Part shown: positions 3,001 through 59,314 of the stretch, piece by piece
Numbering within the stretch: the first letter of the stretch is position 1
How the letters are laid out: every line of letters begins with the position of its first letter
NCBI GenBank assembly: GCA_916610825.1
Contig: OU744453.1
Coordinates: 15,751,807 to 15,815,806, forward strand
Length of the DNA: 64,000 bases
Reading direction: 5' to 3'
Origin: Haliclystus octoradiatus
Lineage: Eukaryota; Cnidaria; Staurozoa; Stauromedusae; Haliclystidae
The notes under the pieces: model-generated
Told to the model about the DNA's origin: nothing
Database searches by the model: none
What the model saw: only the letters and a program-made list of their open reading frames with translations
Position numbers and translations under genes: made by a program

Positions 3001-6000
3001 CCATACCTTGTTAACCCAGGGGTAGAGCCAACGTTACATGACCGACTTCGTTTTAAACTATTGATAACACTAAAATAAAAACAAGTCACATATATGTTTA
3101 TACTAGCTGCATTTGAAGAAATAAAGATGTATAGGGAAGCAAATGTAGACAAAGATTCATAGACCGAGCGGCACATATCTATAACGACAGGTTTCTTCTG
3201 GCAACTTTAAATTTCTGTTTAGAAAATATTTCTTGTTTTGATCAAAATTCATTGTGAAGCTTTCCAAATTCCAAAATCCAATTTACATTCCATGAATCAC
3301 AATCAAATTTACTATTTTTACAATTCTGAGAAACTGCAGCATGTGAGTTTGTGTTTCCTATGGTTTTCAAACCTATGGAAGCATGACCAAAACATCAATA
3401 GACTATATGTAGGCCTATAAAGAGGACTGTCAACTGTTATTTAAATTCATTATAAGTGAGTTCCACTATCAAATTTAACTAAACAAGAAACAGAAAAGTA
3501 TTTAGGGTATTTTTATAAACAATTGTATGCAGAGTCCGACAAAAGGTTCAGCCTTCTGGAATCATAAAGGTATGTCAACATTCTGTTGATATTCGACCGA
3601 TAAAAAGTAAAAGTATCAATTTTATTCTGAATTTCCTCCAACCGTCTGGAATCTAGGATTCCAGGATTCCTACTTATGTTGTACCCTGCATTTAACTGTG
3701 AATTTGAAGATGCCCATCTAAGAAACCTGCTGTTTTTATCTCTGTGGCGCTCGGTTTGAAATGTCCGATTGTTAACTAACCTGCTTTTTCCAACATTAGG
3801 AAAACCTACAAAAAATAAAGGCAAAAGAGAGTAGGCAAAGCAAGGAGTTTAATTATTAATCTATATAAGGGACTGGATTAAGAGCACCTTTAACACTTGT
3901 CGTGCCGAACCCGAGTATACTCGGGGTAGCAGGACCCACGTCAGCAGGCCGAACCAGAGTATACTCGGGATAGAAACGTCATTCAAATTTTGTCCAATCA
4001 TGTCTGCTGCTTCCAGCGGATATGTGATATTTATTGTTCTTTCTAACCAATAGGGATTAAGCTTTATTTAGAACACTGCCTCGTGCTATATAAGCAAGGG
4101 TAGGTAGAGCAATTTCATTTTCAAAATGTCAAGAAGATACACGGCTGAGGAAGCCGCGCGCGTCATTCACGAAAATATTTTCAATGATTCTGATTCAGAA
4201 GATGATATGTTTGAAGTTGATAATGATTATTCTGATGTTGAAGATGATGTTTACAATGATACTGTTGAAGATTCTTCTTTTCTTGACGAATCTGGTGATG
4301 TAGATTCAACATTAGAGGCGTTCATCGATTTGCCTGAAATATCCAACGCGACAGAAAATGTTCAGAAAACAACAACTTCGGAGCCGCAAACTTCAAATAT
4401 ATCAAAGGACTGCCGCTGAAAGAAAGTGATAGAAAAGGCTGTTGAATTTACACAAAGCAATTTCAATTGGAAGGACAAAAAAGATAATGTGTGGACTAGT
4501 GATTCAAAAGTTGTTACTGCCCCACATTTCAATGGCGTTCCAATGTATAAAACTCCAACAGATGATCCTTCAAACCCGTTATCTTGGTGTAAATTATTTC
4601 TGTAAAGTAAACTGTTGAATTGATAAACATTTTGGTTACGGAAACGAACCGATATGCCTCGCAGTTTATAGCGAAAGAGAAGTCACGTATTCAGAACACT
4701 GCTGAAAAACTTAGCTATCGACTTACTTATTGGAAGCCAGTTGTTGTTGATGAAATGTGGACATTTATTGGCCTTTTTATTGCTACTGGCATTATCCAGA
4801 AAGGTAGACTGGCTGATTACTGGAGTACTGACGACCTGCTTGAAACGCCGTACTTCCGTAATCACATGTCAAGAAATCGTTTTCAAGCAATCCTTCGATT
4901 TTTTCATTTTGCAGATAACGAACATTTAGATAAATCAGACCGTTTAGCAAAGATTAGACCAGTATACGATTTATTATGTTCTCTATTTACGTCAAACTAC
5001 ACGCTAAATGAAAACTTGGCCCTAGATGAAGGCACGTTAGCATTCAGAGGACGATTGAAATTCCGGGTTTATAACCCTATGAAACCAGATAAGTATGGAA
5101 TAAAAGGGTACATCGTATCAGAAGCATCAACTGGATACTTGTGGCGCTACGATATGTATTGTGGTGGTGGTATTACATTACAAGATCGTGTGTGCAATTT
5201 ACTAGAGCCAGCTAAAGGTAAAAATTATTTTGTTTTTATGGACAACTTCTACAACTCTGTGTCACTACTGCAAACATTACAGAAGGATAAAATCTATGCA
5301 GCGGGCACACTAAGAGCTAAACGTGGTCAACCCTCTTGCATGGATAAGGCAGGGAAATCATTAAAAGTTGGAGAACAAATATTTGCCTTTACTGGAGATA
5401 TCCTGGTAACCTACTGGATGGATAAGCGACTTGTAAAAACAATTAGCAATTTTCATTCGCCTATTATGCTAGAGTCAGGAAAAAGAAACCGCGATCAATC
5501 AATCGTTATGAAACCAAAAACTGTCCTGGATTACAACAAGTATATGAACGGTGTGGATAAATCTGATCAGATGATAAAGTATTTTCCTATGGTACGTGGT
5601 ACATTGAAATGGACTGTCAAGTTTATTTTATATTTATTGCAAATTAGTCTTTTCAACGCATCAGTTATGTTCAAAAAAGAAAATCCAAAAAGTGATTTAC
5701 GTTCATTTCTAATTTCTGTTATAAAGAATATCCACGCTCAACATTCAAGTAGAAAAAGACCAGCTTCTTCACAAGATGTAGAGCCAGAACAGCAACCATG
5801 TACTTCAAATCGTCCACCAGTTATCGATCCATGTTCTCGTCTACAAGGTTCGTTTTCTGATCATTTGATTGTTGACATTCCGCCTACTGAAAAGAAACAA
5901 AGACCAACGCGTGTGTGTCGCGTCTGCTCGAAAGATGGCAAACGTCATGAGACAAGAACGATGTGTCAGACTTGTAATGTGCCTTTACATAGTAAATCTT

Positions 6001-9000
6001 GCTTTATCTTTACCATTCTAAGAACAAATATTAAACTAATAATTTTTTTATGTATTCCTGTTTTTAAAGTTTTTTATTTATGATTTTTGGTCAAAATATG
6101 GACCCAATATATTTTTGTTTACATATATTTGACTACTTCTTTCGCGTTTGTTTGAATATTACTTCTTTCTGAGTACATATAATAGAAACAAGATTGATTA
6201 GTTTGATAGAATAGTATAATGAGAATCAAATTACAAAAGTTGAGCTTCATAAATATTGCAGAACCCGAGATATTTGGGAAACCGAACTTTTATTGTTTTT
6301 CGAGAAATTTTCAAAATTGCGTCGGCCTGTGGTGAAAGGATTTCGTAAATATGTCGGCATCATAAGTGTTAAGAATCACATCAAATTTTGTGTACTCAAA
6401 ACGGCAGCCATGGAATCTTCATTTTCGTCTACTGGAACATTCCATAGAGTCTTTTATATAGATCCAATGCCTGTAATCTTCAAGATTACAGTCAAATTTG
6501 TTATAATGGTCACCTCTACAAAAGTGGCCACTATTAATGATCATTCTTGGTACGGTGTGTCTAAAATTGTATCGAATCTGAAACAAATTTTGAGTTTAAT
6601 ATTTTGAACTATTCGTATTCCTCTTGGAATCATTTTCCATTTAATGCTTGCCTTGATTCTTAATAGTAGAACAAAGATAAAAACTTATTTTCAGCAGATG
6701 AGCTTTATCGTTCGTTAAAATAGTTTGAAAGTGTTGGGGGATTCCCTGAGATCGGAATCATCTTAACTCTTAGGTCTACCAAGACACATGATACACATTA
6801 ACATTATTTGCTTGCTTTTATGAATGCAAATAAATAATGCTAATACATCGCATCTTAAATATATGATAATAGTGTATTTCAAATTATTATAGGCTATCAC
6901 AGATACTATTTACGTGCAGGTGTGAAGCTTGTTGCTTGTGATATAAACAACCTCTGAACCAGCAAACACTTTTTCTTATAGAAGTTATAGGGTACCGTAA
7001 CTGTTTGCCAGATAGTTAAAGTGGGAATAAACCCCCAGACTATCTTTACATATGTGGTAGAACCCGACGTGAAAAAAACAATGGCGTAATTTTTTTTTCG
7101 ATCTGGAAATTATTTCTTGGCGAAAAACGCCTTCAAAGTGGTGTTTTGACCCAAATGTCGCTGAGAAAAAAAAGGGATTGGATCTAGCTTTATGACGACA
7201 AAGTCACAAGTCGTGCGGTTTGTCTAACAGACTCAAGAGTGTGCTGATCACGCGACGTTATCTTTGAGGTGACCTAGCTCTGAGAAGTCATACAAAAAAA
7301 ATTTCTGACAAGGCTGAGCCATGAACAAACATATAAACTCGCGAATTACGTAAAAAAGATACAATTTGTGATTTCAGGAGCAGAATAAAATCTATTGAAA
7401 CGCTCAGTCTAAATAATTTCTCGTAGCGTCATTAAGCGCGATGAATCTGATATAGATTGCGGATTAACACAAATGTCAGGCGGTGCGAGTGTTCCTTTGT
7501 GACTAGTCTAGCGACACATATTAGTTACGTATTCTGGGTGACCGCAGTACTTCTCAAATCTTAATTAGTAGACACGTACCCTTCGAAATAGCTTTATCCT
7601 ACGCTATATAAGTTATATAGCTATTTTTAACTCTATCTGCAAGTTGTTCTCGTGTAAATATTTCTAGAAGATATCCTTTTCAAGATCTAGATGTAAATGT
7701 AAACTGACTCGATTTGCACAGTCATGCACAGACGACTTTTCCTCGAGATAGATGGTACTGCAAAGTATTAATTGTACTTTTTCGGATTTATTTAAGTATT
7801 ACCAAATTATTAAATAGACATTTTTCAATTATCATTTCAAAATTTAATTTTGAAATCGATGTTTGTCTAGTGAAACTTAAACCATGTAATCGTATAGTTT
7901 ATACGACTGTTGATAGATATATTACACCCAATAGTCTAACAAAGTGTTCATCATTTATTTACCAAGCATTCAATTATTATAAAACCATCGAAAATTCTTC
8001 AGTACATTACACTGTAAAATTCTATAAAATATCGGAAAATAGTACAAAAATGATATGAGGGCTTGGACGTTCTTATTCAAGTTTACAGCCATATATACTA
8101 GAACTACAGTAATGCATAATCTAGCATTTTTCGGTTTTGCGGTATATCTTCATTGCATAAATTGTTACCCTCTCTATCAACGTTATCTGATTAACAAAAT
8201 TAGGGTTTTGCAATGTGAAGTCTCGTTCCTGATTACACATACGCCACCAATTTTTTTTACCATACTAGCTAGTATTCATTCCTTTGGCTAGAAAGTAGAA
8301 CATATGTTAGCATTATGTCACAATCTGTAGTTTATAGGATGTAGTAATACAGTGCATAAGCTACTTTGCACAAAATACCTTTCTACAGATACGATAAATC
8401 AGATGGACAGATTTCGTTTCTGTGAAAAGAGGACTATAAACCAACCTTTAATAGCGTTTCCCACCGTACATTTTGATATTTACGCTCAAAAGAATACTCA
8501 ATTTTCAGTCCAGACATATGCTTACAAACAATAAATTCTACTTAGCTAGCTTTTGTGGTCACCAGAGAATCTTTTGATATGTGTTAAATATGTGTGAGAA
8601 TGATATGTCAAAATATAATCTGTATAACGCGCGCTACGAATGAAATATTTTCTGATTTTTATTTTCTTCAAATTCGTGAACTTTAAAATCATTAAATCAT
8701 CTGGAATTTTGCTACTCTTGAGTTTATATGTTCTTCCTTACCTCAGTTTTGTGGGAGAGAATAATAGATTGCCGTTACAGAGCTACGCCATCTCAAACAT
8801 AACATCGCGTGATTAATCCGATCTAAAGTCTATTAGAAAAACCACACGACTTGTGACTTTGTCGTCATAAAGCTAGATCCAATCCCTTTTTTTTCCTCAG
8901 CGACATTTGGGTCAAAACACCACTTTGAAGGCATTTTTCACCAAGAAATAATTTCCAGATCGAAAAAAAAATTACGCCGTTGTTTTTTTCACGTCGGGTT

Positions 9001-21732: not shown

Positions 21733-21826
21733 TTAATAAACGAAAAAATCAGACATTCATATTTGCTACTATTAGTTTCACGCCAAGGCGATCATCAGGA
21801 AATTTATTTCTTCGTTTATTAATTAT
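21733..21826. repeat. Foldback enclosing one hammerhead motif
   Basis: AATTAATAAACGAA and TTCGTTTATTAATT bracket a segment with a minus-strand hammerhead core. To the left is a (TA)n tract, to the right an AGCTCTGC...GAGCACTA module. Same design as 56075-56170, different flank sequence. Confidence 0.6.
21762..21803 (-). ncRNA. Hammerhead ribozyme motif, solitary
   Basis: Minus strand reads CUGAUGA, stem II CGCC/GGCG, GAAAC, short stem III ACU/AGU, then cleavage-site A. Stem I is imperfect. The pair at the base of stem II is U-U rather than G-C, as in several relatives here. Resembles the minimal type I hammerheads known in Penelope-like elements. Confidence 0.6.
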
Positions 21827-21950: not shown

Positions 21951-22262
21951 CTTAGATTTTATTGATTATTGTATTGCTAAATTTAATCGCCTTACGACTA
22001 ACAATGAAAATCCACAAAAGAACAATACAATCAATATTATAATTGTAATAGTATGAGAATACTGTGTGTAAGCAGGATTGAAATATATGACACAAGAGAT
22101 TGAGTTGAGATATTATTCGTGAGAGCACCAAACAAGGAATGAGTTTACAAGTGTCGAGGGACAGTATTCACATGAGTTAAAATGAATGAATGATAATTAG
22201 TAATATGACGTTACAGGAAGTTATGACAATGATTACAACACAATTACAATACTACTACAATA

Positions 22263-22700
22263 ATGCCGTATAAAGACCAGATATCGGCCAACTCTTTACG
22301 TAAACAATTAGGAACTCTGAGTGTTGAAGTCGGTCAACAGTTTAGACCGATATTTAAAAGTAGAAAATTGAATGATGAATCCGGGAGCCGAGACCGATTT
22401 TACTGTCTCGTCAATGCGTTGTGTATGAATTCAAGTGTGACTCGTGAGATGTGAGTTATGTCGGTTTTACATGCCGACACCTTCATCAACGCCTTGCTGA
22501 ACACGGTGGATCGAGCTCGGCTGTTGGACAACACTTACATTCACACAATATATGACTATCAGTGATTTACAACATCTGTTTCAGTAGTGAGAAAATGTAA
22601 GAACAAGTTTGACTGTTTGGTTCACGGAATGCTAATCATCCACGAAGGAAACCGACTATCAACACTCAGAGTGACTCTATCCGTTCTCGTCTCCTTTTGT
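22263..22700 (+). pseudogene. Penelope-like element C-terminus with GIY-YIG remnant
   Basis: Across shifts: PYKDQISANSLRKQLGTLSV, QQFRPIFKSRKLND, then YVGFTCRHLHQRLAEHGG, AVGQHLHS and KFDCLVHGMLIIHEGN, ending LSTLRVTLSVLVSF. This is the layout upstream of and within the GIY-YIG endonuclease of Penelope-like retroelements of a different subfamily from the 56-58 kb copy. Multiple frameshifts and stops. It lies 300 bp from the ribozyme array at 23007. Confidence 0.65.
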
Positions 22701-22969
22701 AAATATATGCATAATAGAACATGTTGTAATTGAATAGGTTTCCTTTCTGTTTCATTGTTTTATTTTTAGCACTATTTTTAACAATTAGAATGTATTAAGT
22801 TTTTAGATCCTTAGCCTATAAGTAATTTGTAAGTTAATATTTATTTCTTTTGAACTGACGATGGTATAATGTATAATACCGAACATTTTTCAACAACCAC
22901 TACTTGTAGATTTTTGTCGCTATGTTTTGCTTTGAAATGTTTTAACAAAGAAAGTTTTGATCAATAATA

Positions 22970-22971
22970 AT

Positions 22972-23006
<35 letters not shown>
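22970..23006. repeat. (AAT)n microsatellite, left flank of the ribozyme array
   Basis: Uninterrupted AAT/ATA triplets directly abut the first 260-bp unit; a similar tract resumes at 23787. The array appears inserted into, or seeded from, this microsatellite. Confidence 0.85.
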
Positions 23007-23007
<1 letters not shown>

Positions 23008-23056
23008 GCAGCAGACATGTACATGTTTCTGGCCATTAGCCTTCATCAGTACTGCT
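23007..23056 (-). ncRNA. Hammerhead ribozyme, array unit 1
   Basis: Minus strand: stem I AGCAGUA pairs with UGCUGCU (7 bp, one G-U); core CUGAUGA; stem II GGC/GCC closed by an A-A mismatch at its base; GAAAC; stem III ACAU/AUGU; cleavage triplet GUC. Cleavage is predicted between plus positions 23014 and 23013. Unit 1 differs from units 2 and 3 by one base that lengthens stem III. Confidence 0.8.
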
Positions 23057-23266
23057 CAGTGAGCGAACAAGGAACTGACTTCATTATACACCTAAGTCAA
23101 GATGAGTTATAAATGTGGTGAAAAAATTCATCACATGAAAAAAACATCTGTGCCATACCAGGGTGCTCAAACTACCGAAGTAGTGGGCAATGCATAATGC
23201 AAATAGTATAGGCACATCCCGAGTCGAGAGTGCTCAAAATTGCGCATGCGCAATTGAGACATACAT

Positions 23267-23316
23267 AGCAGCAGACAAGTACATGTTTCTGGCCATTAGC
23301 CTTCATCAGTACTGCT
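23267..23316 (-). ncRNA. Hammerhead ribozyme, array unit 2
   Basis: Same architecture as unit 1, 260 bp away: 7-bp stem I, CUGAUGA, stem II GGC/GCC, GAAAC, 3-bp stem III (ACA/UGU) with hexaloop UGUACU, cleavage triplet GUC. Confidence 0.8.
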
Positions 23317-23526
23317 CAGTGAGCGAACAAGGAACTGACTTCAGTATACACCTAAGTCAAGATGAGTTATAAATGTGGTGAAAAAATTCATCACATGAAA
23401 AAAACATCTGTGCCATACCAGGGTGCTCAAACTACCGAAGTAGTGGGCAATGCATAATGCACATAGTATAGGCACATCCCGAGTCGAGTGTGCTCAAAAT
23501 TGCGCATGCGCAATTGAGACATACAT

Positions 23527-23576
23527 AGCAGCAGACAAGTACATGTTTCTGGCCATTAGCCTTCATCAGTACTGCT
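23527..23576 (-). ncRNA. Hammerhead ribozyme, array unit 3
   Basis: Identical to the unit 2 ribozyme, 260 bp further on. Intact core in all three units implies a recent or conserved array. Confidence 0.8.
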
Positions 23577-24206
23577 CAGTGAGCGAACAAGGAACTGACT
23601 TCAGTATACACCTAAGTCAAGATGAGTTATGAATGTGGTGAAAAAATTCATCACATGAAAAAAACATCTGTGCCATACCAGGGTGCTCAAACTACCGAAG
23701 TAGTGGGCAATGCATAATGCAAATAGTATAGACACATCCCGAGTCGAGAGTGCTCAAAATTGCGCTTGCGCAATTGAGACATACATAATAATAATGATAA
23801 TAATAATAATAATAATAATAATGATAATATTATACACTTATTGTATGGCAGCGAGGGAGATAAAACTCACTATTTCCCGAGTCAGTCATTCATTAAGTGC
23901 TTTAGCATATTACGACCTATGGTATTTAACTAGACAATGATGACGCAACCAATAGTAATGATTTATTTTAATTATTCATAGTAGGCCTACAGAACACGCT
24001 GCAACTCACAGCAATAACAATAACACATAAAAGAATTAAGAGGAAAGCATAATTAAAACTTTTCGCATTATTGAGCTTAAGGAGTAAAGATGGCTCTAAA
24101 GAAACACTAAATCTAGTATAGCGTTTGCAATTTCAATTCACTGAAAATGAGAATGACAAATCTTAATATAAAGCTAATGTAACTACATATTTTGATATCA
24201 ATTTAT

Positions 24207-26727: not shown

Positions 26728-26783
26728 TAGTTAATATCCCCTACTTCACATTAGATTATTTGTGGTTTTATTTGTCTTTACAG

Positions 26784-29362
26784 TTGATGTCTCAAAAGTT
26801 TGTCCTTCTGCAAGTCATAAGATGCTTTCCGGCTATAGAGATATAATTCGAAAAGATTCAGCGGCAGACTATGTTCACATTGTTGATGAAGAAACGGCAA
26901 ACAATGCTGCCCGATCAATATTTAATGCAATCAAATTCGAAACAACAACAAATCAATCAAGTTCAACTGCAGCAAATATCGATTGTTTGAAAAAAGTAAA
27001 TCATATGAAGAGTAAGGAAGAAGAGAATCAGAACATAACTCTAAACTCAACCAATCAGAAACCTGAAAATGGAGATATTCAACCTACTAAACCTGAGAAT
27101 AGAAATATTCAACCTACGAAACCTGAAAATGGAGATATTCAACCTACTAAACCTGAGAATAGAAATATTCAACCTACGAAACCTGAAAATGGAGATATTC
27201 AACTTACCAAACCTGAAAATGGAAATAGTCGTCCTCCAAAGCGCAAAATTGAGGTCGCAATCAAACCAGAAGAAGTGAAGAAGCCTCGTACGGATTTGCC
27301 ATTAATACCTGCTGAAGTTGGTGATGGAATTAATTTTGAAATCAGCAATCCAGGTTCATCGAAAGAGCATGTTACAACTGTATTACCCAAGCGTTCCCGT
27401 ACGCGTCAATCCAAATCCAATCCTTTGGAAAATATATCTACTACTAAAGCAAAACAAAACAGATCAGACGATAGGCAGGCTAAAAGTGAAACGCCTGCCA
27501 AAACTGTTAATGACTTGTCCAAAAGTTCTAAATACTTGACCAAATCAGTAGGTAAGCAGCCTAAAAGTGAAACATATGCAAAAGCTCTTAATGAATTATC
27601 AAAAAGTCCTAAACTCTTGACTAAATCAGATGTTAAGAAGTCCGTTAAAAATGAAACTCCTGCCAAAACCATTAACGAATTGTCCAAAGGTTCTAAACTC
27701 TTCACCATCAGCAAAGAAGGAAAGAATCGTCTCAAGCGTGCCTTCCAAGGAATTCTGGCTCCAAAGAACTTGACTATCAAATGCCAAGATATTGGCAAAA
27801 CATTAGAAAGGATACCACTGGAAGAGATTGTCGATCATGGAGTTCCTTCCCGTAAAAAGTTTAGAAGTACTTTGAGATGTGATTCTGTCTCAGGATTATC
27901 TTCAAAGTCACCGGTTAAGAAAGATAATGTTGATATGAAGAAAGACAATGTTGATATAGAAACATCTACACCTGAAAGACCGTTAACAAACAAGAAGGTG
28001 CCAATAGATCCGTCAAAACTTGTTTTTGATACTGAAAAGTTAAAGAAATTTAACTCAGTTGTGTCGAAATGCAAAGGGTTGAAGTCAATGACATCGGCAT
28101 CTAGTTCTTCAAATACTGCACGAGGCAAACTTTTTACCATTGCTACAAGTGTAAGTAACACTGGTTGTGAATCAAATAGTAGGAATGAACAACACAAAGC
28201 AGAAAATTCATCATCAAAGTGCGATTCCAGTCATGATGTACCTAGGTGTAAGGATCATGCTTACTGTAACAACAAGCGACTAACAAGTTTTATGAAGGAA
28301 AGAAGTACAGCTTTACAAGAGTTGAAAAGGCTAAGTGGTGATGTAGCACAAAGCAAAAGAAAGATAATGAAACAACCAATTCCTAAAATTCAATCAAAAC
28401 GTGATAACCCTGTCACATCCAATAGAGCTGTTGCTTCTACACATTCAAAATCTTCTGCAGCATCACCTACTACGTCCAACACTCAAAATTATACATTTCA
28501 TCATAATGGCCCCAAACAGAGTAACTCCCAATTAGTTATCCAAAGACCTCTTGCTAAGCTAACTCCAAAACTCCCGATTTCTAGGGTAACAACTAACCAG
28601 CTGACAACTGTTACTACCCAACGTATTGCATCTGCATATAATGCTAATGCCTTGAACAACGACATGATTAGCAAAATGATGGTTGTTGGAAACTCTTTCA
28701 TATTTCCTAGACCTAATCCAACAAATTCTCTGTTGCATCCGACGCTGGGGAACATTTCTACTACCGCTCAGGCAAGTACAGGATTATCCAGTCCTTCTAA
28801 TACAACAGTTGCACACCCGATGGTCACATGTGCTCCACCATCCAGTAGCATCACAAATGCAGCTACAATATTAAAGCCTGGTAATGTGATACCAACATTG
28901 GTACCCCTAAGTTCAAATCCACAGCTACTGACCAAACCAAATACTCATTTCTATGTGAAAAGCAAAGACGGTTTATATATTAGAGTTGCGAATCCTTCCT
29001 TTCGTCCGAATTTCACGCAACAAGTTTTGCAAGCGAAACAAACAGACTCTGCAGACATGTCATTTCCCAGAATTGTAAGCGTCCAATCCATTCAAAAGTC
29101 TGGGGCAAAAGTCAGATCAGTTCCTCTTAGTATTAAAACCCATATTCCTACACATCATACTGTTAAAAATCCTATTACCGCGGAAATACGCAAAGTTGAT
29201 GTACCAACCCCAATCCAAACTACGTCCTGGAAATCGAAACATCAAAAATTTGATTTTATCCCTATGCGGAACAGTACACGAATGAAATGTATGATTGGTC
29301 TCGATTTTGCTGTGACAAGATTACTAGAATATAATGAAAATCCAGCACTAGATATTACCTGA
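26784..29362 (+). CDS. Terminal exon of a large unrecognised basic, Ser/Thr/Lys-rich protein
   Basis: A single open frame of about 860 codons starts at a good acceptor (TTTGTCTTTACAG|TTGATG) and ends in TGA; the first in-frame Met after the acceptor is at 26822 (MLSGYRDIIRKDSAADYVHI). After a conserved-looking N-terminal block come five to six 10-residue repeats of the type KPENGDIQPT (27057-27230, about 30 bp each, alternating in pairs), lysine-rich segments with nuclear-localisation-like KRKIE and KKPR, repeated SETPAKTxNELSK blocks, and Asn/Ser/Thr-rich C-terminal half. The end is KCMIGLDFAVTRLLEYNENP. I recognise no domain; composition suggests a disordered nuclear or chromosomal protein. 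Upstream exons are not established. Confidence 0.8.
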
Positions 29363-41089: not shown

Positions 41090-42148
41090 GAAGAGCCTGG
41101 TGAACTGTTTCCCGACATTGACACTGGATGTGAAAACCAACAAGAAAGGGAGCTACTCCAACAGTTTAATCTCCAAGATATAGAGCAATCTCAGAGACGT
41201 TATCCACAAAGAAATTGAACACCGCCTATAGCTACTTAAGAGAATTCGATACATCCAATAATGATGATGACGAGAATATTTACATGGTCAATTTGGATTG
41301 CTTTTATGTCATGAAAGAATACCAAAATGTTATGAAGAGGAAATACAAGAACAAGACATTTTGAGACGGAGAGCGGCAATGAAAGATGAAATTGATTCGT
41401 TAATCACAAACGACACATCCTCCTTAGCAAAACGACCAGGCGAGAAAAATGAAATGGATGTTAAACGTGTTTATCTACATGCTCCTTTGGAATGTAATGT
41501 TCACATCCAAGAACCTCCTGGATATCACAACAGCAAAGAGAACAAAGAAAGCCTGTGTTGGAAAATAAATAAATCACTCTATGGTTTGAAACGAAGTGGC
41601 AGAATCTGGCAAAATATGTTATATGCTTATCATAGTGAATTGGATTTTAACCAAGCCAGTGCGGATTTGTGTGTCTTCACTAATTTGGATGAGAACGGAG
41701 TTATCATATTACTAGTATGGGTTGATGATATTATTATAGCATATTAGCTATTTGGCTAAATTAGTTATAAGCAGTAACATTTTTAATTACATTGCTATGG
41801 TGTTATTCTATCTTCATATTTAGAGAAAGTTGTTGTCAAGAGGGAGTGTTATGATTGACAGACATCTTTTGTATCATTGTTATTATGCAGAGCATGCGCA
41901 TTAAGGAGATATCTACCGCGTGCTCTGTAATCTTTACTTGTTATCGTAGTTATGAAGATTGTTATTATTAAAAGTATGAAGCTGACTGTTTATTGAGTTA
42001 TATAGTGATAACAATATTATCCATCGTTCTAGTAGATCCAATGGATGAGGAGCTAAATCTAACAGACACATCAATCAATCAATCAACCAGAATTCACTTT
42101 TTCTTCACTACCCTCGTCTGGACACTTGATAATGGACTTTAGTTAGAA

Positions 42149-56527: not shown

Positions 56528-57480
56528 CTAATTCCTTGAAATTTTTCGAATAAATTTGTTTTCGTGCCTGCATTTAGAAACCAGCTCAGATCTTCTATTT
56601 AATAAGTTCTTGTTTTTGTAAAACGTTATAAAAAATTTTTCCTCTAAACAGAGATGGCATTTTTTCAATATGTTGTCGTATGGCACTGCCGTTGATAGAA
56701 TTGACCATTTGACGAAGAATGATTTTCCGTTATCTTTTAATGACCAGATGTATTTAGACAACTCAGTGCGATTTTCATATTTTCTGTTGGTAAATGACGA
56801 CTTATGTTTCGTAAAACGATCTTTGAATGCTCCTTCAGTAAGGCCGATGTAGTTGTGGCCGTTTGCGTCCTCAGGTGTGGTTACGTTGGCATTATATATT
56901 ATGCTGGTTGTCAAGCATTTGTTGTCAAGAGGGCAGTTTATTTTGGAGCGGCAATTGCATTGTTTTGTTGCTTGTTCTTTGTTGTCGGCGTTCAATAATT
57001 TTCTGTTGTGGCTTCTCAGAATTGTTTCTATGTTTGCCATGCAGCAGTAGCTGACTTTTACATTATTTTTATTAAAAAGTTTGTGGTATTTGTGCTGTTT
57101 CGGAAAATGTTTGTTCAGTAAAAGTATAAATTTTCTGGCTATGTCTGTGTCAACATTTTTGCTGAATGGTGGGTTGAACCAAATTATTTTTCTTTTTCTA
57201 TTCCTTTTAGCTGCAGTGGTGGTGGGTCGTTGATTGTAGGTAAAATCGGCGTCATAGCCGCTAGATCTTAGCGCGCATATGTAAGGGGATTTTGACCTTT
57301 CAAAAGCATCGTTGTTGCAGGAAAGGTCAGATATTCTCTGGTTGATTGAAGCTGGTATCTGTTTGATGACGTTGGGTGGGTGATTAGACTCTGCATTAAT
57401 GTATAGGGGCTCGTCGTTTGGTTTTCTGTATGGTTGGTATGTTCCGTCTTTGAGGTTAAGCGTTATATCTAAAAAATTGA
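56528..57480 (-). CDS. Penelope-like RT C-terminus plus GIY-YIG endonuclease (left copy, 5'-truncated)
   Basis: Open from the junction: FLDITLNLKDGTYQPYRKPN and NHPPNVIKQIPASINQRISD are the conserved end of the Penelope-type reverse transcriptase. Then comes the linker NKHFPKQHKYHKLFNKNNV, a Cys motif CNCRSKINCPLDNKC, and GIY-YIG with NYIGLTEGAFKDRFTKHKSS and ELSKYIWSLKD. Ends RKISRN. No start codon is expected, since the 5' part of the RT is missing. The frame is intact over its whole length. Confidence 0.88.
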
Positions 57481-57489
57481 TTATATTAT

Positions 57490-58101
57490 ATGATTATATT
57501 GATTTATTTACTGAACAAACATTTTCCGAAACAGCACAAATACCACAAACTTTTTAATAAAAATAATGTAAAAGTCAGCTACTGCTGCATGGCAAACATG
57601 GAAACAATTCTGAGAAGCCACAACAGAAAATTATTGAACGCCGACAACAAAGAACAAGCAACAAAACAATGCAATTGCCGCTCCAAAATAAACTGCCCTC
57701 TTGACAACAAATGCTTGACAACCAGCATAATATATAATGCCAACGTAACCACACCTGAGGACGCAAACGGCCACAACTACATCGGCCTTACTGAAGGAGC
57801 ATTCAAAGATCGTTTTACGAAACATAAGTCGTCATTTACCAACAGAAAATATGAAAATCGCACTGAGTTGTCTAAATACATCTGGTCATTAAAAGATAAC
57901 GGAAAATCATTCTTCGTCAAATGGTCAATTCTATCAACGGCAGTGCCATACAACAACATATTGAAAAAATGCCATCTCTGTTTAGAGGAAAAATTTTTTA
58001 TAACGTTTTACAAAAACAAGAACTTATTAAATAGAAGATCTGAGCTGGTTTCTAAATGCAGGCACGAAAACAAATTTATTCGAAAAATTTCAAGGAATTA
58101 G
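57490..58101 (+). CDS. Penelope-like GIY-YIG endonuclease (right copy, more truncated)
   Basis: From about 57507 identical to the left copy apart from a few changes (ANMETILR versus ANIETILR, PYNN versus PYDN). Begins inside the linker, so it retains the Cys motif and the complete GIY-YIG domain but no RT. The apparent N-terminal MIILIY is junction sequence. Confidence 0.85.
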   Translation: MIILIYLLNKHFPKQHKYHKLFNKNNVKVSYCCMANMETILRSHNRKLLNADNKEQATKQCNCRSKINCPLDNKCLTTSIIYNANVTTPEDANGHNYIGLTEGAFKDRFTKHKSSFTNRKYENRTELSKYIWSLKDNGKSFFVKWSILSTAVPYNNILKKCHLCLEEKFFITFYKNKNLLNRRSELVSKCRHENKFIRKISRN

Positions 58102-58290: not shown

Positions 58291-58330
58291 CCGTCTGAGG
58301 AGCGCTACAGCGCGAAACTTCGAGTAACGG
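58291..58330 (+). ncRNA. Hammerhead ribozyme at the right end of the Penelope twin
   Basis: Exact inverted copy of 56299-56338. Preceded by ATGAATAAAA and followed by GAGAAAACGTCTC. Confidence 0.85.
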
Positions 58331-58491: not shown

Positions 58492-58580
58492 AAGTAATTG
58501 TGTGGGCAAAACATCAATTTGAGTGCTCAATGCTAAAAGCAGAGCAATATAAATAGTAGATCAAAGATCACGAGTTTATT

Positions 58581-58620
58581 CCGTTACTCTGAGCTTCGCG
58601 TAAAGACGCTCTTCAGACGG
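58581..58620 (-). ncRNA. Hammerhead motif, P2 left arm (variant)
   Basis: Stem I CCGU/ACGG, CUGAAGA, stem II GCGU/ACGC, GAAG in place of GAAA, GUA cleavage site. The A-to-G change puts a G-U pair at the base of stem III; activity may be reduced. Confidence 0.65.
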
Positions 58621-58642
58621 TTTTATTAAATATTTAATAAAA

Positions 58643-58682
58643 CCGTCTGAAGAGTGTCTTTACGCGAAACTCAGAGTAACGG
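58643..58682 (+). ncRNA. Hammerhead ribozyme, P2 right arm
   Basis: Stem I CCGU/ACGG, CUGAAGA, stem II GUGU/ACGC (one G-U), GAAAC, stem III ACU/AGU with loop CAG, cleavage after GUA. Confidence 0.75.
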
Positions 58683-58706
58683 AATAAACTCGTGATCTTT
58701 GATCTA

Positions 58707-58748
<42 letters not shown>

Positions 58749-58776
58749 AAAGAAGTCAAAAACTACACATTCATAA

Positions 58777-58816
58777 TTGTTACTAATAGTTTCATACTTA
58801 CGCAATCATCAGACAA
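58777..58816 (-). ncRNA. Hammerhead motif, P3 left arm
   Basis: Stem I UUGU/ACAA, CUGAUGA, stem II UGC/GUA-type with mismatch, GAAAC, stem III ACU/AGU, GUA. One base differs from the right arm, weakening stem II. Confidence 0.6.
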
Positions 58817-58828
58817 ATAAACTAATGA

Positions 58829-58868
58829 TTGTCTGATGATTGCGTAAGCATGAAACTATTAGTAACAA
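58829..58868 (+). ncRNA. Hammerhead ribozyme, P3 right arm
   Basis: Stem I UUGU/ACAA, CUGAUGA, stem II UGC/GCA with loop GUAA and a U-U base, GAAAC, stem III ACU/AGU with loop AUU, cleavage after GUA. Confidence 0.65.
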
Positions 58869-58953
58869 TTATGAATGTGTAGTCTTTGACTTCTTTTATT
58901 ATATTTAGCTCTGTCCAATGATATCGAGCACTATTTTTTGCTATTAGATAATA

Positions 58954-59001
<48 letters not shown>

Positions 59002-59127
59002 ATAATATAATAATAAAGATAGATTTATCTATCGTCAGATGTGATAGTGCTCAATACCGATTAAACATTGGCAGAGCTGTAATACATAAGGATGGTGACT
59101 GAGTCAAAGAAAACACATTCTTAATTT

Positions 59128-59167
59128 CTGTTACTATAGTTTCACGCAGTGTGCGATCATCAGACAG
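59128..59167 (-). ncRNA. Hammerhead ribozyme, P4 left arm
   Basis: Stem I CUGU/ACAG, CUGAUGA, stem II CGCA/UGCG with loop CAC and a U-U base, GAAAC, stem III AC/GU with loop UAUA, cleavage after GUA. Confidence 0.65.
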
Positions 59168-59209
59168 TTGATACTCAATCAACAGAGTATCAACTCAATT
59201 GAGTATCAA

Positions 59210-59249
59210 CTGTCTGATGATCGCACACTGCGTGAAACTATAGTAACAG
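59210..59249 (+). ncRNA. Hammerhead ribozyme, P4 right arm
   Basis: Exact inverted copy of the motif at 59128-59167. Confidence 0.65.
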
Positions 59250-59314
59250 AAATTAAGAATGTGTTTTCTTTGACTCAGTCACCATCCTTATGTATATATA
59301 TATATATATATATA

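Follow-up and report, generated by a model that had tools for sequence, protein, structure and literature searches.

The window, a 64,000-nucleotide stretch of the Haliclystus octoradiatus genome (contig C10, positions 15751807 to 15815806; the genome searched amounts to 262 Mb in 33 contigs), contains a tandem array of three head-to-tail units at 23007-23266, 23267-23526, and 23527-23786. Unit alignment gave 260 bp for each, or exactly 3 x 260 bp for the array, and TRF reported a period of 260 with 3.0 copies, 98% matches, and no indels (23005-23787). An earlier note, made from the letters alone, had described three exact units; this holds for their length and not for their sequence, as the units are 98 to 99% alike and seven alignment columns vary. 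The AAT microsatellite that the same note saw on both sides was recovered by TRF as AAT/ATA arrays at 22963-23007 and 23785-23829, which are probably the insertion target and lie outside the element itself. The GC content is 0.36 over the region around the array (22001-24000), and no open reading frame (ORF) of at least 130 amino acids (aa) overlaps the array. The features of this region are as follows.

22963..23006, no strand: AAT microsatellite on the element's 3' side in transcript sense (TRF, whose array ends at 23007), read as insertion target
23007..23786, minus strand (transcript sense): array of three 260-bp units classed here as a retrozyme (TRF, unit alignment, family search)
23787..23829, no strand: ATA/AAT microsatellite on the element's 5' side (TRF, whose array begins at 23785), read as insertion target
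23007..23056, minus strand: hammerhead of unit 1, stem III of 4 bp (ACAU..AUGU), predicted cut 23014 (C)/23013 (U) (descriptor scan, fold)
23267..23316, minus strand: hammerhead of unit 2, predicted cut 23274 (C)/23273 (U) (descriptor scan)
23527..23576, minus strand: hammerhead of unit 3, predicted cut 23534 (C)/23533 (U) (descriptor scan)

Every unit carries at its end, on the minus strand, the motif AGCAGUA-CUGAUGA-A-GGC-UAAUG-GCC-A-GAA-ACA..UGU-C-UGCUGCU, which can be drawn as a hammerhead-like fold of type I: stem I has 7 bp (AGCAGUA/UGCUGCU), stem II has 3 bp (GGC/GCC) and a UAAUG loop, stem III has 3 to 4 bp, and the triplet is GUC. The minus-strand hammerhead claimed for each unit was borne out, as our descriptor matches in all three, and the parts listed at first reading (7-bp stem I, CUGAUGA, GGC/GCC, stem III, and GUC) are all present; what was overlooked is an A.A mismatch at 10.1/11.1, at the base of stem II next to the core, in all three window units. 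Of the 11 sites that the type I descriptor finds in the window, 3 belong to the array; in 60 shuffled versions of the full window with dinucleotides preserved, the descriptor matched once, and never with 7 or more base pairs in stem I. This descriptor, in which the mismatch at the stem II base is optional, was composed after the motif had been seen, so it serves as a check on chance and not as a blind discovery. The covariance-model scan that the earlier note had called for gave no such agreement, with no Rfam hammerhead at the gathering threshold over the whole window nor at E<=10 over 22900-23900. This silence says little, because the canonical hammerheads of another family of the same genome (L088) also fall below the gathering score of 34, at 25.2 and 21.7 bits. 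A genome search with RF00163 gave no match anywhere, its 14 controls included, and is thus uninformative. Only the unit 1 version of the isolated 51-nucleotide (nt) motif adopts the hammerhead at minimum energy; the unit 2 version prefers a non-hammerhead structure. Modelled as a 260-nt circle, the unit is 65 to 72% paired, and holding the hammerhead in it costs 1.2 kcal/mol for units 2 and 3 and 4.7 kcal/mol for unit 1. The ribozyme may be weak because its closing pair is A.A and the best-tolerated mismatch there is U.U, which, in the available text of PMC3088659, supports more cleavage than other mismatches at this position and has a natural case.

The genome-wide search suggested earlier revealed a dispersed family. 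A core word with up to three mismatches matches 449 + 443 = 892 times and a body word from another part of the unit 280 + 291 times, with no match for either control (reversed, in the case of the core), and pieces range from under one unit to about 12 units. The exact core gave 0 matches in a viral and 0 in a prokaryote contig collection. Conservation was assessed in 92 unit copies from the window and 40 loci picked by the body word, not by the ribozyme (40 of 64 places drawn among the body-word matches listed). Only 8 of 1062 pair cells in stems I to III are broken in the body-selected copies, so the freely mutated stem I and core that would have spoken against a ribozyme were not found, and A faces A at 10.1/11.1 in 80 of the 85 units scored at both places. 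Since the copies are mostly similar and young-looking, the retention of pairs is at best a faint sign of selection, and we do not rely on the identity to the majority (0.987 in the hammerhead region versus 0.963 in the rest of the unit), because the difference is small and copies decay after insertion.

The insertions have a characteristic anatomy. In 51 of 67 mapped pieces there is a common 3' end right after the 3' strand of stem I (TGCTGCT), 7 nt past the predicted cut, while the 5' ends vary and are scattered round the unit; the copied RNA would thus hold an uncut hammerhead at its 3' end. AT, ATT, or AAT microsatellites of at least 12 nt lie within 30 bp of the 5' end in 34 of 66 insertions with the common 3' end and of the 3' end in 41 of these 66, against 0.6% of random 30-mers of the window. 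Exact target site duplications (TSDs) of 11 to 15 bp flank 7 of the 19 insertions with complex flanks, two of which (L103 and L116) actually run into a further unit, and 3 of 342 mismatched flank pairs reached at least 8 bp as a control. This set leaves out pieces that lack the common 3' end or lie too near the end of a stretch. No poly(A) was seen in the listed flanks and there is no LTR, the TSDs being longer than 4 bp. A common 3' end, variable 5' ends, and TSDs are the signature of retroposition, from which the copies appear to have arisen, most simply by target-primed copying.

The hammerhead model sets the cut between unit positions 253 and 254, so that the fresh 5' end would be U254. 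Eight of the 67 mapped pieces begin at 253-255, compared with 0.8 expected under uniform starts, although one of them (L063) is doubtful, as TGTC precedes its start. We also counted, genome-wide, exact unit-start matches whose preceding base differs from that of the unit, and obtained 31 junctions at 254 versus 2 at 255, 7 at 253, and 6 at 252. The 254 class was inspected in full and the other three only in part (three of the six at 252 are unit junctions within arrays by coordinates). Among the 31, 27 are clear 5' ends with unrelated, mostly AT-rich DNA in front, one (L114) is doubtful, having bases that resemble the hammerhead GAAACATGT before its start, and three (L100, L102, and L121) are C-to-T changes inside arrays and not 5' ends. 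For 17 of these 27, the distance to the end of the next TGTCTGCTGCT is 265 to 270 bp, so that an insertion of this class typically comprises one unit and a 7-nt repeat; L103 and L116, among these 17, go on into a further unit. L049 is a dimer, and in 9 of the 27 the common 3' end is not seen in the stretch examined. A true start at 255 with the T supplied by an AT target was considered and rejected, as targets ending in A should then fill the 255 class, which holds only 2. An RNA 5' end at the cut is the simplest cause of the peak at 254, with transcription starting at that very nucleotide as its main rival, and we regard the peak as strong, though indirect, evidence of cleavage in vivo.

Other ends are informative as well. 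Three insertions (L096, L099, and L116) have extra TGCTGCT-like filler at the 5' junction, which we read as if the enzyme had run off the RNA end and restarted. All six pattern matches for 3' ends at the cut were inspected; five look like point changes or rearrangements and were discarded, and only L084 looks real, being also the only cut-to-cut insertion, to within one nucleotide. Elsewhere than 253-255 lie 59 of the 67 5' ends, including a second cluster at the unit boundary (259-3) with 7 of 67, the window's array among them. The short pattern for starts at 260 gave 75 matches versus 36 for the reversed control; it is too short to be compared with the longer patterns and only hints at a second class of 5' ends. 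The first letters of the unit, ATGTATG, match the ends of AT-rich targets, and the boundary cluster may come from microhomology placing the joins or from a stop after whole turns of a circle.

The units of an array tend to be close copies of each other. In 9 of the 14 arrays that have at least two full units the within-array distance is 0.00 to 0.4% (L056 has 7 units at 0.00%), whereas the distance between arrays has a median of 2.7% and a mean of 6.35%. The other five arrays are the window's (1.79%), L034 (1.54%), L048 (1.24%), L067 (0.77%), and L032 (5.77%), an old 12-unit array whose variants are partly shared among its units, a pattern that suggests local exchange. Variant A39C occurs in all three window units and in no other among the 86 units compared. 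This distance set is confined to unit pieces of at least 241 columns, and its C4 count of 13 contains some units twice, because the loci overlap. Such an array would be best explained by repeated passage of the enzyme around a circular RNA, and expansion in place is possible.

We class the 260-bp repeat, as far as its sequence allows, as a non-LTR (animal) retrozyme, an already known kind of element, in agreement with the retrozyme reading first proposed for the array, which the dispersed family, the retroposition anatomy, the kept fold, and the 5' ends at the predicted cut all support. It is a 260-bp non-coding tandem unit with a type I hammerhead in each copy, no LTR, TSDs of more than 4 bp, and a low GC content, the value of 0.36 being that of the surrounding 2 kb and not of the unit alone. 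Penelope-like elements encode a reverse transcriptase (RT) and a GIY-YIG endonuclease; the unit, with no ORF of at least 130 aa, encodes neither. Animal non-LTR retrozymes have been described in coral, mussel, and axolotl (Cervera and de la Pena 2020, PMC7229834), and those in the accessible part of that work share with ours the non-coding tandem repeats (about 170 to 400 bp) with a type I hammerhead per unit, the dimers to multimers, the lack of LTRs, TSDs of more than 4 bp when present, and co-resident Penelope-like elements. They differ in that the axolotl HHR_Amex2 has U.U at 10.1/11.1 instead of A.A, in that they come with RNA evidence while our family is known from genome sequence, and in that 5' ends at the cleavage nucleotide and a common 3' start site 7 nt beyond are not described in that part of PMC7229834. 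Mussel hammerheads also lack most of the conserved nucleotides of the loop-loop contacts between stems I and II (PMC7229834, same part). The plant LTR retrozymes, as treated there, are likewise non-autonomous hammerhead retroelements, with circular RNAs, but have type III hammerheads, LTRs, and a 4-bp TSD. What distinguishes our family is the unusual mismatched core together with the informative insertion ends; in a literature search that covered titles, the beginnings of abstracts, and accessible text, mostly of open-access papers, we came across no description of retrozyme insertions ending at the cleavage nucleotide.

The genome also harbors canonical hammerheads. Cores of the form CTGATGAG..CGAAAC occur 115 + 147 times (reversed control, 1), at loci that include a 183-bp tandem family (L088 and L089) and Penelope-type minimal hammerheads (L090 to L093). 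The 183-bp repeat resembles the 260-bp family in its tandem units and, as judged by eye at two loci, in a 3' end that closely follows stem I and in flanks that look like TSDs, but has a canonical G-C closing pair and a longer stem II, and BLAST found no match between the two units. With a pattern ending in a GUA cut we collected 39 distinct minimal hammerheads from the fetched loci. Among 38 of them, 32 have a paired stem I, of which there are four versions (CCGU/ACGG, UUGC/GCAA, CUGU/ACAG, and UUGU/ACAA), bearing in mind that the pattern itself fixes two letters of its 3' strand. Positions 10.1/11.1 are U.U in 20, G-C in 17, and U-A in 2, so mismatched closing pairs are common in this genome and the A.A of the 260-bp family fits the pattern. 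In 17 of the 39, some tens of bases after the hammerhead lead to AT or AAT microsatellites (by eye). The window has its own elements of this type.

57490..58101, plus strand: candidate helper remnant, Penelope-like C-terminal ORF of 203 aa (ORF and inverted-repeat analysis; homologues beside arrays)
58291..58330, plus strand: Penelope-type minimal hammerhead, stem I CCGU/ACGG, core CUGAGGA, about 190 nt downstream of the 203-aa ORF (descriptor scan)
58825..58872, plus strand: Penelope-type hammerhead with U.U at 10.1/11.1; inverted partner core at 58812 on the minus strand (descriptor scan)
59210..59249, plus strand: Penelope-type hammerhead with U.U at 10.1/11.1; partner core at 59163 on the minus strand (descriptor scan)

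The 203-aa ORF, which we take to be Penelope-like from its motifs, had no match in Pfam, and a PDB search gave nothing sensible. It lies largely inside one arm of an 866-nt inverted repeat (56266-57131/57498-58363), the other arm of which holds an ORF at 56528-57040 on the minus strand, and a perfect 98-nt inverted repeat (59082-59179/59198-59295) has the hammerhead at 59210-59249 in one of its arms. An interpretation of the palindromic Penelope-type cores as the termini of DNA transposons was dropped when ORFs were found in the 866-nt arms. Relatives of the 203-aa ORF occur in 7 of 40 array loci, as 10 clusters in 118 kb of flank; the controls for this count are weak, the 64-kb window holding a single locus and ten other loci, 20.8 kb in all, holding none. 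An undoubted ORF with RT plus GIY-YIG exists elsewhere in the genome (L131); a pattern search of its 4.1 kb found no hammerhead core, and BLASTP found no similarity between its protein and the Penelope-like ORF of the window.

A relevant precedent is the Penelope-like RT of Anolis (Poseidon), which begins synthesis inside its RNA and prefers ATT or AT-rich DNA (PMC11167929). Poseidon-type elements, in what is available of that study, thus share with the 260-bp family a hammerhead near a fixed internal RT start, AT-rich or ATT targets, and tandem copies, and differ in encoding their own RT and endonuclease. In the same portion of the study, mutation of the hammerhead did not prevent insertion, cutting by the hammerhead required the presence of protein, and none of the reads stopped at the cut, in contrast to the insertion ends at the predicted cut in our family. 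These results (PMC11167929, same portion) count against cleavage being generally required.

From the family, the insertion anatomy, the ends, and the pairing, all read directly in the genome sequence, we infer the cleavage chemistry, the circular template, and the helper of the following mechanism. The array would be transcribed and each unit of the RNA would fold into a type I hammerhead. Part of the RNA would cut itself after GUC, making U254 one 5' end of the copied RNA, an end to which the junctions point indirectly. An RT, most likely that of a Penelope-like helper, would start at a fixed internal site, whose position at the 3' edge of stem I of an uncut hammerhead is seen in the copies, and proceed toward the 5' end of the RNA. 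The target would be AT-rich DNA that has been opened, with (AT)n, (ATT)n, or (AAT)n preferred, and would be entered with the duplications of 11 to 15 bp seen where the flanks allow. A linear RNA reaching from an uncut hammerhead back to the previous cut would yield a 267-bp insertion, one unit plus 7 nt, and premature stops would yield 5'-truncated copies. Several rounds on one template, most simply a circular RNA, would produce near-identical arrays like that of the window, which starts at the unit boundary and not at the cut. We consider this explanation as a whole, a non-autonomous non-LTR retrozyme insertion with self-cut RNA, an internal start, and a likely Penelope-like helper, to be probable, and slightly less so in view of the second 5'-end cluster at the unit boundary. 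Against it stand the minority of starts at the cut site, the prevalence of A.A as closing pair, the silence of Rfam, the better non-hammerhead fold of the unit 2 motif, the Anolis hammerhead mutants that still inserted, the single cut-to-cut insertion (L084), and the lack of a Pfam match for the candidate helper ORF.

Some of these observations could be accommodated by an ordinary SINE-like element whose transcription starts at 254 and whose hammerhead is a dead relic, as SINEs too have 5'-truncated copies, a fixed 3' end, and TSDs, and the A.A mismatch could signal a dead ribozyme. Nevertheless, the start would then fall by coincidence on the one nucleotide predicted by the hammerhead (31 versus 2 to 7 at its three neighbors), few pair cells are broken in the body-selected copies, and two simple patterns match no A or B box in a doubled unit; we find this improbable. 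Spread of a satellite by DNA-level exchange between microsatellites, without any RNA stage, would account for the microsatellites at both flanks and for the partly shared variants of the 12-unit array L032, a sign of local exchange. It is, however, hardly credible in view of the common 3' end in 51 of 67 pieces, the variable 5' ends, the exact TSDs, and the hundreds of genome-wide matches.

For the retrozyme itself, the mover and the template have to be considered. A LINE could have moved it instead of a Penelope-like element, as TSDs of 11 to 15 bp and 5' truncation fit LINE-type target-primed copying and Pfam matches nothing in the Penelope-like ORF of the window. However, the listed flanks contain no poly(A), the internal start and AT-rich/ATT targets resemble those in the available part of the Anolis study (PMC11167929), Penelope-type hammerheads are co-resident and also reach AT/AAT microsatellites (17 of 39, by eye), and ORF clusters accompany the arrays (10 in 118 kb, against the weak controls above). 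We therefore regard a LINE as an unlikely, though respectable, candidate and a Penelope-like element as the most likely helper. As to the template, all copies, arrays included, could derive from linear RNAs without a circle; the 267-bp class requires a linear 5' end, and two multi-unit copies (L045, with 4 units, and L049, with 2) also start at 253-254. The near-identical units of 9 of 14 arrays and the A39C variant confined to the window speak instead for one template unit or later homogenization, which leaves the linear-only account doubtful, yet a more serious contender than the LINE. Returning to the self-cut retrozyme RNA, it is tempting to speculate, with slightly more conviction than for a linear-only origin, that selection has favored partial cutting, since the start signal would be lost if the ribozyme were fully active, and that the insertion ends archive cleavage in vivo.

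The ends of the copies would thus provide a record of cleavage at one nucleotide and of a fixed start site for reverse transcription, in a family whose target preference resembles that of a Penelope-like enzyme, and they suggest that the hammerhead motif is functional in vivo and contributes to the spread of the repeat. Such end-mapping needs no RNA and can be applied to any genome with retrozymes.

Last, the window contains several other features. Perfect or near-perfect inverted repeats (56266-57131/57498-58363, 58547-58716, 58738-58907, and 59082-59295) bear in their arms Penelope-type cores on opposite strands, several with U.U at 10.1/11.1, and adjoin AT microsatellites; they are apparently paired, inverted Penelope-like remnants. 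Single Penelope-type cores with the U.U closing mismatch are found at 21798 (with a broken stem I) and 56143, both on the minus strand. On the plus strand, an open frame of 866 aa (26762-29362) has internal tandem repeats of 30/60 bp and 81 bp (27058-27227 and 27480-27707; TRF) and no Pfam match above the cut-off. Also on this strand, a 487-aa ORF (4620-6083) matches DDE_Tnp_1_7 (PF13843) and is presumably a PiggyBac-type transposase, and a 149-aa ORF (41298-41747) matches RVT_2, which we take to be a fragment of a Copia-type reverse transcriptase.
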